Assembly: GCF_023238205.1 (NCBI RefSeq)
Contig: NZ_CP096659.1
Span: 1 to 64,000 of the forward strand
Source: Halorussus limi
Lineage (GTDB): Archaea > Halobacteriota > Halobacteria > Halobacteriales > Haladaptataceae
Length of the DNA: 64,000 bases
Direction of reading: 5' to 3'
Shown: piece after piece, positions 27,368 through 29,718 of the stretch
Numbering within the stretch: the first letter of the stretch is position 1
Layout: the number at the start of each line of letters is the position of its first letter
Notes under the pieces: model-generated
The model's input: the letters and a program-made list of their open reading frames with translations, nothing else
Databases searched by the model: none
Told to the model about the DNA's origin: nothing
Program-made: the position numbers and the translations under genes

Positions 27368-28117
27368 TCAGTGCGACGAGTGGCGACGCTCCGTCTCGCG
27401 CTGGCTTCCCTGTCCGCGACGACTGCCGTAACGTCGGTCGTTCTCGCTGGTCCCGCCTTCGCCGCCGTGGCGGTGTTCTCGCTCGCCGCGAATCTGGTCG
27501 CGGAACTCCGAGTCCGACGGGTTACCGTGCCGGTCAGAACTGCCTCGTTGGCCGGTCATGCGTCCGGAAATCCCCTGCTCGCGGTGGCTCCCGCGCTGAC
27601 TGCCGGTTCGCGGGGACCCGGTGTCGCGGCCCTGCGGTTCGCGGTGCTGGCCGTGTCGGTCGTCGCCTCGCTGGCGGCCCTCTCCGCGGTGGCTACTTTC
27701 GCCCTGTTCCGTTTCGTGGTGGCCGCCCGACTGTCCGCCGGTTCTCGGACTCCGAGACGTGCCGGAGTCGTCCGCACCGCGACTCCCGTACCGATTGGTG
27801 TGCCCACGGTCGTCGCCGAAGTCGTGACCCTGCTGACTTGCGGTGCCGCCGCGAGAGCCACCACGGTCGCTCTCGTCGTGACTGCCCTGCGTCCGGGAGT
27901 GAGCGTCTTCCGCGAGTCGCTCGTAATCTCGCTGTGACCGGTCGGACTGGTCGCCGTGGTGATGGTGGTGGTGATGGTGGTGGTGAGTCCCCTCGTCACC
28001 CTCGTCTCGGTCGCCTTCGAGGTCGGTCCAGTCTCGATGACTGGTCTCGCCGCTCTCGTGGAGACCGTGCTCGTTCGCCGCTTCGCGCCGTCGCTGTTCT
28101 TTGTGCGGATTTGCCAT
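27368..28117 (-). CDS. His/Gly/Ser/Arg-rich intrinsically disordered protein
   Basis: 249 residues with almost no hydrophobic residue. It contains a run of ten histidines at about 45-54, then repeated RG, QRG, SHR and GSRG motifs and a closing RRYGSRRGQGSQRE. No fold or export signal is expected. RG-rich tails often bind RNA, and the His run could bind metal ions (inference). The closing segment resembles RRYGSRQSQGQQ in the Gln-rich protein at 35182-36699. Both genes share an identical-distance promoter element, so they may be co-regulated. ATG 28117 follows the TAAG box by 36 bp. The function is not known. Confidence 0.72.
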   Translation of the reverse strand: MANPHKEQRRREAANEHGLHESGETSHRDWTDLEGDRDEGDEGTHHHHHHHHHHGDQSDRSQRDYERLAEDAHSRTQGSHDESDRGGSRGGTASQQGHDFGDDRGHTNRYGSRGADDSGTSRSPRTGGQSGGHHETEQGESSHRGEGRQRGDDRHGQHREPQGRDTGSPRTGSQRGSHREQGISGRMTGQRGSSDRHGNPSDSEFRDQIRGEREHRHGGEGGTSENDRRYGSRRGQGSQRETERRHSSH

Positions 28118-28171: not shown

Positions 28172-29377
28172 CTATCCAAGCACGCCGAGACCGAACAGCG
28201 GTCCGAACAGGAGGTGGAGGCCGACGCCCACGAGCAGGGCCGGAATCGTGGTGTAGATGGAGGCGACGACCGCGGCGGTCCGGTCTATCGCGAGCAGGGG
28301 AAACAGCGCGTCGCCGTCCTGACTGATGGCGTTGGCCGTCAGCGCCGAGAAGGGAATCGCGCCCTCGGCGTAGACGCCCGCGAGGACTATCTGGGGGCCA
28401 CACCCCGGAATCAGTCCCACGAGCGCGCCCGCGATGGGTGCGAGCAGTCCCGCGGCCGCCGCGAGCGCGCCCACGTCGACGCCGAGCGCCACGACGCCGT
28501 ACTCGTAGAGTAGGTACGCGGCCAGCACCCAGACCGTGACGAAACTCGTCTCCATCGCGGCGTGAACCAGCGTGTCGTAGGTGTCCGAGAACGACTCGCG
28601 AGCGCGACCGACTTCCCCGTCGCCGAGGTACCGCCGACCGACGAAGTAGAGGTAGAACGACAGCGTCGTGCCGGTGACCCCGACCACGGTGAACAAACCC
28701 GCGAACGAGACGCCGAGTTCGAGAGGGACCTCGGGCGCGCCGGCGAGGAGGTACGTGACGCCGAGCGCGAGCGCGGCCGCCGCGGCGACCCACCAGAGTA
28801 CGTGGACCGCGTGAGAGAGCGGCGTGAGAAAGTCGGACTCGCGGGCGGGTCCGCGTTCGTGGCTCCCGCAACTGTCGGCCTCGAAGTCGTGGGGACCCGT
28901 CGTGGGAGCGCCCCGCGTCAGTACGCCGCCGTCGGTCGCGGTCCGGTCGAGGCGCCGAACCGCGGCGTCCACCCGGCCGACGCCGACGCCGAACCGGTCG
29001 ATGGCGTACCCGGAAACGATAGCCGTGCCGAACGCGATTCCGTAGGCGTAGAGGCCCGCCTTCGGCGCGAGCGCCAGTATCACGAACGCCGAGTCGCCCG
29101 CCGTGGCGACGAGCGTGGCGACGACGGTGCCGAAACTCACCGTTCCCCGGACGTAGAGGGGCATCATGACGATGGCCCCGCCACACCCGGGGGTCAGTCC
29201 CATCGCCGCGCCGACCAGCGGTTGGAGGCGCTCGCTGTCGCTCAGTTTCTCGACCAGCGCTCCGCCGGTCCGGTACTGGACGAGGCTGAAGAGCAGGACC
29301 GTCACCGCGACGAACGCGCTGACCTGCACGTAACCGTCGCGGACCGACGCGACGAAGATGTCCGCGAGTTCGACCAT
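28172..29377 (-). CDS. ArsP_2-like 10-TM putative heavy-metal (manganese) exporter
   Basis: 401 residues with about ten membrane helices in two halves. Each half carries a GxxPGCG loop: GLTPGCGGAIVMMPLY near 60 and GLIPGCGPQIVLAGVY near 315. A hydrophilic loop rich in His, Cys and Asp (PHDFEADSCGSHERG, about 165-180) lies between the halves and could bind metal. This matches the family labelled putative 10-TM heavy-metal exporter or putative manganese transporter (name from memory). A ribosome site (GGAGG) precedes the ATG. The promoter carries overlapping palindromes like metalloregulator operators, which supports metal-controlled expression. Confidence 0.82.
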   Translation of the reverse strand: MVELADIFVASVRDGYVQVSAFVAVTVLLFSLVQYRTGGALVEKLSDSERLQPLVGAAMGLTPGCGGAIVMMPLYVRGTVSFGTVVATLVATAGDSAFVILALAPKAGLYAYGIAFGTAIVSGYAIDRFGVGVGRVDAAVRRLDRTATDGGVLTRGAPTTGPHDFEADSCGSHERGPARESDFLTPLSHAVHVLWWVAAAAALALGVTYLLAGAPEVPLELGVSFAGLFTVVGVTGTTLSFYLYFVGRRYLGDGEVGRARESFSDTYDTLVHAAMETSFVTVWVLAAYLLYEYGVVALGVDVGALAAAAGLLAPIAGALVGLIPGCGPQIVLAGVYAEGAIPFSALTANAISQDGDALFPLLAIDRTAAVVASIYTTIPALLVGVGLHLLFGPLFGLGVLG

Positions 29378-29418
29378 CTCACTCCGCCTCCGCGACGAGT
29401 CGGCCGCGAGACACTATA

Positions 29419-29445
29419 TTAGACATGTCTAAACTAGAGTTTAGA
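29419..29445. promoter_or_regulatory. Overlapping palindromes, DtxR/MntR-type operator
   Basis: TTAGACATGTCTAA (29419-29432) is a perfect 14-bp palindrome that abuts the minus-strand TATA box TCTAATATAG of the exporter. It overlaps TCTAAACTAGAGTTTAGA (29428-29445), an 8-bp-arm inverted repeat with a 2-bp spacer. TTAG...CTAA palindromes are typical of DtxR-family metalloregulators (SirR/TroR/Idr) in haloarchaea, so metal-dependent repression of the exporter or of the divergent gene is likely. Confidence 0.6.
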
Positions 29446-29538
29446 TTAGAGGAACGTATAGCTTTCGGCGCCTGTCCTTCTCACGAACTGGAATCCCGCG
29501 ACAAGTTTTTTCTATCAGCCACGCGCATGGTACCTTGT

Positions 29539-29718
29539 ATGAACGAAACGTACGTGCGGTTGCTCTGCCCGGAGTGTGGCAAGGACTGGGAAGAGTCGCC
29601 CGACGACCTCCCCACCCACGACGAGACGTTCCACTGTCCGAACTGCCACGCTTCGCGCCGGACCGCGGAGTTCACGCGGACCGAGCGCGACTTGGAGACG
29701 CTAAAACAGTTCCAGTAG
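29539..29718 (+). CDS. Small zinc-ribbon protein (DUF7836-like)
   Basis: 59 residues. Two CxxC pairs, LLCPECGKDW and HCPNCHAS, form a rubredoxin-like zinc ribbon. A charged helix follows (TERDLETLKQFQ). The DUF name is from memory; function unknown, perhaps transcription or translation related. ATG 29539 follows AAGTTTTTTCTATC, a plausible TATA about 35 bp upstream. It runs tail to tail into aIF2-beta with no gap. Confidence 0.75.
   Translation: MNETYVRLLCPECGKDWEESPDDLPTHDETFHCPNCHASRRTAEFTRTERDLETLKQFQ

Follow-up and report, generated by a model that had tools for sequence, protein, structure and literature searches.

A candidate manganese-type DtxR-family operator with a leader start codon in its spacer at a haloarchaeal PF11449 transporter gene

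The PF11449 locus and its two palindromes

The window, by which we mean the whole 64,000-nucleotide stretch of DNA analyzed, encodes on its minus strand a transporter of family PF11449 preceded by a tiny leader ORF and, divergently, a small zinc-ribbon-like gene (Table 1). Nothing was found in this analysis to indicate that the operator described below serves the divergent DUF7836 gene. Just downstream of the transporter gene, on the minus strand at 27368-28117, is an ORF with a ten-His run, which could encode a metal-binding protein or be open by chance.

The two palindromes, TTAGACATGTCTAA at 29419-29432 and TCTAAACT-AG-AGTTTAGA at 29428-29445, have five bases in common, exactly as the preliminary description had placed them. 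They are the sole AT-rich palindromes of their kinds in a window of 67% G+C, and symmetry alone is weak evidence because the window holds five perfect 14-bp palindromes and six with 8-bp arms and a 2-bp gap; what sets the two apart from chance is their conservation. The same description had a TATA-like box flanked by the palindromes, and here the comparison of promoters gave a different picture: the box beside the first palindrome is not conserved, whereas a conserved BRE/TATA, CGAAAG-CTATAC on the minus strand, lies on the opposite side, upstream of both palindromes in the direction of the gene. With the conserved TATA box there, the predicted start site would be covered by the operator.

Table 1. 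Features of the transporter locus, with the candidate regulator gene elsewhere in the genome
Feature	Position	Strand	Basis and remarks
PF11449 transporter	28172..29377	-	PF11449 (ArsP_2), 382 bits against a gathering threshold of 32.5; NF037962, 277 bits
Leader ORF, MSNIVSRGRLVAEAE-stop	29379..29426	-	ATG inside the operator spacer; stop 1 nt before the transporter ATG; 15 codons
Main palindromic operator (putative), TTTAGA-CATG-TCTAAT in gene orientation	29418..29433	-	Agrees with the consensus at 11 of 12 positions; conserved in the upstream regions of PF11449 orthologues
Second overlapping palindrome, TCTAAACT-AG-AGTTTAGA	29428..29445	.	Taken to combine a third half-site with the TTTAG half of the main palindrome
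Third half-site (putative), CTAAA, on the side facing TATA	29440..29444	-	Sequence, promoter comparison
Predicted TATA box of the transporter gene, CTATAC	29456..29461	-	Position conserved in alignment; haloarchaeal TATA/BRE motifs as given in PMC4983044
Predicted BRE, CGAAA	29463..29467	-	Alignment; haloarchaeal motifs as given in PMC4983044
Divergent small zinc-ribbon-like gene, DUF7836	29539..29718	+	Profile match
L016, SirR/MntR-like DtxR-family regulator	contig C1 near 2398530		Domains PF01325, PF02742, FeoA

Conservation, promoter architecture and the leader ORF

Upstream regions of 300 nt each were compared, for which 80 named PF11449 loci were fetched. The motif TTTAGA-N4-TCTAAA is matched at 10 or more of its 12 letters in 85 of the 90 haloarchaeal regions (12 letters in 28, 11 in 40, 10 in 17 and fewer in 5), not all of which are independent, some genomes being present twice; the coding control gave 0/90, with a maximum of 8/12 letters, and mononucleotide shuffles attain the same threshold in about 0.5%. 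Outside the haloarchaeal set (bacteria, marine Euryarchaeota and one AT-rich relative), 6 of 18 upstream regions reach 10/12. The inverted TTAG...CTAA half-sites characteristic of DtxR-family (SirR/MntR-type) operators are present, and this conservation upstream of orthologues, the promoter of the DtxR gene itself and the content of the regulon (see below) together give good support to the earlier proposal that a DtxR-family site lies at the promoter of a metal transporter.

In a relative, genome G007, the PF11449 gene (L046) is truncated to 158 codons, with its operator altered symmetrically to TTTTAGGTATACCTAAA, and the same genome has a TroA importer with a Mn-type site. In salt-loving Bacteroidota and relatives (L178, L179, L182, L188, L190), PF11449 proteins 53-59% identical to the haloarchaeal one have TTTAGNNNNNNCTAAA-like palindromes upstream, suggesting gene transfer with a similar operator.

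Architecturally, after redundancy was cut at 85% identity (here and for the leader ORF), two arrangements stand out. The main PF11449 layout reads, in gene orientation, BRE/TATA, about 15 nt, CTAAA, N6, TTTAGA-N4-TCTAA and then the gene; the mirrored layout, a class assigned by eye from the upstream alignment, reads TTAGA-N4-TCTAA, N8, TTAGA and then BRE/TATA, and is found at 12 non-redundant PF11449 promoters and most of 22 TroA rows. At regulator, UPF0016 and some importer genes the palindrome comes directly after TATA. Where a third half-site is present, it stands at spacing 8 from the main palindrome and faces the TATA box, and the second palindrome at our locus can be read as just such a half-site. 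At least 4 of its 5 letters are matched in 35/53 main-layout promoters, 10/12 mirrored PF11449 promoters and 14/22 TroA rows, against shuffle means of 1.2, 0.3 and 0.4, respectively; in the main layout (n = 53) the next best spacing scores 16/53, and the shuffle maximum is 6. The other 18 of the 53 main-layout promoters fall below 4/5 letters, which counts against the mechanism proposed below. Site position was also considered as a predictor of import or export and was rejected: TroA sites lie both upstream and directly downstream of TATA, and PF11449 genes occur in both main layouts.

The start codon of a tiny leader gene appears to be held in the operator. An ATG lies inside the palindrome spacer, in one of two registers, in 47/53 non-redundant main-layout promoters. 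In 45 of these 47 the stop codon of the ORF so opened is no more than 11 nt away from a codon that could start the transporter, often in an ATGA overlap; the nearest candidate (ATG, GTG or TTG) was taken, a choice that favours coupling. A frame control for the leader ORF gave 36/53 for the ATG+7 frame, 18 for the +5 frame and 7 for the third. Six main-layout promoters have no spacer ATG: in four the transporter ATG is at most 15 nt from the site, and the remaining two are that of Halogeometricum limi and the truncated G007 copy. In other site classes an ATG occurs at those positions in 4/12, 4/22, 0/12 and 0/8 rows.

Leader ORFs are not confined to the main layout. In all 12 mirrored PF11449 promoters the first ATG after the TATA region comes 53-62 nt past the site, and the ORF it opens is 24-44 codons long in 11 of them and 5 codons long in L175; overlap with the start of the transporter gene was judged by eye and only in part. 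Standalone UPF0016/GDT1 genes have a leader ORF of 22-25 codons running from 11 nt past the site to the gene start in 10/10 cases, with an ATGA overlap in 9 (L002, at G000:C1 near 3207400, and its genus relatives L075, L082, L106, L108, L110, L111, L114, L115 and L117); the peptides are poorly conserved, and the leader therefore looks like a translation device. At the importer and regulator promoters displayed, the gene's own ATG lies, by eye, at leaderless distance from TATA. Shine-Dalgarno motifs are reported to have no role in de novo initiation at 5'-UTRs of Haloferax volcanii (PMC6728339), and overlapping genes there are described as coupled via re-initiation (PMC6728339; PMC3986360). That re-initiation points to translational coupling to the transporter as the likely purpose of the leader ORF. 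A riboswitch in the leader was considered and set aside: the yybP-ykoY Mn riboswitch gave no Rfam match at E ≤ 1, and the fold was ordinary (z −1.1).

The regulon and its candidate regulator

The preliminary description had suggested a genome search for the motif. Only three sites in the organism's own genome are within one mismatch of TTTAGANNNNTCTAAA, one each at the PF11449 gene, a DtxR-family gene and a UPF0016/GDT1 gene. Across 28 family genomes, 27 of them with a match, there are 60 unique TTTAGANNNNTCTAA sites, 53 at regulon genes: 16 at PF11449, 21 at DtxR genes, 10 at standalone UPF0016, 5 at TroA-type importers and 1 at NRAMP, the other 7 being at no recognised regulon gene or at a gene that was not examined. 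Counted by strand, these genomes hold 84 matches to the motif and 21 to the reversed control pattern. The DtxR gene's own promoter thus bears the motif in our genome and at 21 sites in the family; several of the 21 have UPF0016 next in line, one is at a paralogue of 48% identity, and in one genome the DtxR gene is directly upstream of PF11449. The motif also stands at 18 of 20 TroA-type importer genes, 19 of which come from other families and all of which were hand-picked from the listed matches by where the profile match ended, and at 5 of the best 30 NRAMP loci returned. As judged from motif occurrence, the operator family would thus define one manganese-type regulon of SirR/MntR-like DtxR, PF11449, UPF0016/GDT1, TroA-type and NRAMP genes.

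A distinct motif, TTTAGG-N4-CCTAAA, is also present in the genome. Five perfect TTTAGGNNNNCCTAAA sites (G000, C1:1593745, 1889413, 2356299, 2825929 and 3175367) lie 0-68 nt before the starts of genes for an ABC ATPase, a lipoate-ligase-like protein, DUF5059, an RGP-like protein and DUF7551/7552. Being one letter off the Mn-type motif, TTTAGGNNNNCCTAAA suggests a second DtxR regulon, perhaps for iron; no clear iron regulon was evident among the genes behind the five perfect sites and one mismatched site.

The protein that binds the operator is probably L016. It scores 223.3 bits against the NCBIfam MntR equivalog NF047407, under the cut-off of 350, and is therefore named SirR/MntR-like only; it aligns with Mn/Fe sensors of known structure, and the nearest solved relatives, 5zr4 and 8pvt, are metal-dependent regulators. 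An alignment with IdeR sets Asp8 and Asp101 of L016 against Met10 and Cys102, the remaining IdeR ligand positions of both core domains being retained. Hard Asp ligands in the primary metal site, on the IdeR ligand roles that we assume for the aligned positions, presumably mark a Mn-type DtxR sensor. L016 shares Lys11 and the His98 equivalent with DR2539, which is described as a dual Mn and Fe sensor that binds DNA in its metal-bound state (PMC3327659). The genome contains a second DtxR-type gene, L017.

Proposed mechanism, transport direction and known systems

We read the palindromes, at a probability of roughly 70%, as one extended operator for L016, with Mn-type repression, a second dimer and leader re-initiation. 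One L016 dimer would sit on TTTAGA-N4-TCTAA, and a second would probably dock on the third half-site, 8 nt off, toward the TATA box. Since the operator reaches from immediately behind TATA to beyond the predicted start site, L016 bound there should keep out the basal machinery or RNA polymerase; Mn(II) is the probable effector, perhaps with Fe(II) as well. With the promoter open, transcription would begin a few nt before the ATG of the operator spacer, and ribosomes would read the 15-codon leader ORF and then re-initiate at the transporter.

Several other readings bear on the same observations. The preliminary description had two different proteins competing for the two palindromes, and the second DtxR-type gene L017 and the distinct TTTAGG-N4-CCTAAA motif could furnish a competitor, yet we regard this as highly improbable: the palindromes share a TTTAG half, and the rest of the second one repeats this half-site a third time, at the fixed spacing of 8 and, at importers too, on the side towards TATA; a single protein bound to an extended operator is the simpler account. 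The conserved CTAAA might instead be a core-promoter element, since a haloarchaeal -10 'WW' has been proposed (PMC4983044) and in the main layout CTAAA is found at roughly that position; the mirror half-site TTAGA, upstream of TATA and again at spacing 8, at TroA importers and 12 PF11449 promoters makes this unlikely.

The remaining alternatives keep the operator and change its logic. As in Bacillus, where MntR is reported to activate mneP and mneS (PMC9993123), a metal-bound regulator could repress importers while activating PF11449 and UPF0016 exporters; bacterial UPF0016 members are reported to export Mn (PMC7380456), sirR is listed among early metal-response genes (PMC3600143), and the leader ORF groups PF11449 with standalone UPF0016, importers and regulator looking leaderless by eye. 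Such a dual role nevertheless seems improbable to us, because in the main PF11449 layout the operator lies past TATA, on top of the predicted start, where an activator would hardly be expected, and position does not separate the groups: some PF11449 genes are arranged like TroA importers, with the site upstream, and some importers like UPF0016. Because importers have sites on either side of TATA, with the half-site pointing to it from both, promoter occlusion is the simplest common mechanism. Less probable again is that metal-free regulator represses PF11449 and UPF0016 exporters until Mn releases it, which would fit both the export label and an operator over the start site; the related DtxR-family DR2539 binds DNA when metal-bound (PMC3327659), and importer mRNA goes up, not down, in a Halobacterium sirR deletion with Mn (PMC1779511).

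Whether repression of an extended operator by L016 makes sense physiologically depends on the direction of transport, since Mn-dependent repression makes none if the transporter exports Mn. UPF0016, a family with Mn exporters among its bacterial members (PMC7380456), stands in the same regulon. Pfam calls PF11449 a 'putative 10TM heavy-metal exporter' and annotated plasmid homologues bear the label 'putative manganese transporter'; 'exporter' comes from the family name, the homologue names carry no direction, and our literature search found no experimental study of PF11449. The family is present in 29/59 relatives and 76/195 genomes of the order. Within the genus, 2 of 17 genomes have both PF11449 and PF01297, 10 only the former, 5 only the latter and none neither (Fisher p 0.003; p 0.013 when the 62% complete G012, omitted from the count, is included; phylogeny not corrected). 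In the 195 genomes of the order the corresponding counts are 43, 31, 81 and 40 (p 0.22), so replacement of TroA importers by PF11449 holds in the genus and not in the order; PF01297 is a mixture of zinc and manganese types, and the truncated G007 copy and a G188 fragment were scored absent, other fragments present. Also in the order, PF11449 and NRAMP co-occur above expectation (57, 17, 70, 51; p 0.008), and the occurrence of PF11449 is independent of that of UPF0016 (54, 20, 82, 39; p 0.52). On balance, the operator layout and the published SirR data favour manganese repression, which would suit import: the layout is of repression type, an importer with the same operator shows Mn-dependent repression, and PF01297 is excluded in the genus. 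Against import stand the lack of exclusion in the order and a leader ORF in common with UPF0016, whose bacterial members export Mn. Only tentatively, then, and as something we think rather doubtful, do we suggest that the operator does double duty, its spacer being the start codon of a coupled leader ORF, and that PF11449 is a Mn-repressed uptake system replacing TroA-type importers. If so, a single element of 28 bp would control the transcription as well as the translation of a Mn transporter, and the 'exporter' name would be contradicted.

DtxR control of haloarchaeal metal genes is already known. Leyn and Rodionov (2015) reportedly predicted DtxR sites and regulons in archaea, Halobacteria among them. 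Four halobacterial UPF0016 genes are placed under Mn-responsive control in a review that cites that work among others (PMC7380456). The three-half-site layout and the embedded leader ORF look new, our literature search having found no description of the operator or leader ORF at these genes. A palindrome pair thereby becomes a testable haloarchaeal manganese regulon, with a regulator, a TTAGA half-site code, importers and putative exporters; the 'exporter' label of a widespread transporter family is put in question, and an operator spacer would double as a start codon.

The nearest counterpart is SirR of Halobacterium salinarum, whose targets zurA, zurM and ycdH are reported to have raised mRNA in a sirR deletion with Mn (PMC1779511; also PMC3600143). 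Upstream of the metal ABC transporter binding-protein gene on pNRC200 of strain NRC-1, taken to be ycdH, stands ATTTGATACATCTAAA (10/12 consensus letters), followed by TTAGATAG at spacing 8 and then by a TATA box, that is, the same Mn-linked operator pattern with a third half-site; the site is upstream of TATA at this importer, whereas ours is downstream of TATA at the PF11449 gene, and SirR and L016 are likened here through the operator pattern. Regulators of the Deinococcus DR2539/MntR/IdeR type resemble L016 in their Fe_dep_repress, Fe_dep_repr_C and FeoA/SH3-like domains, Lys11 and the His98 equivalent, and differ in that here the promoter context is archaeal and the half-site is TTAGA. 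Coupled overlapping gene pairs likewise have the stop/start overlap ATGA and a Shine-Dalgarno motif before the second start, but at our promoters a short leader, mostly of 12-24 codons, takes the place of the first gene, and its start codon lies inside the operator. The Bacillus subtilis MntR regulon is alike in having one motif at importers and putative exporters, and unlike in that here the main PF11449 layout has no site upstream of the promoter.
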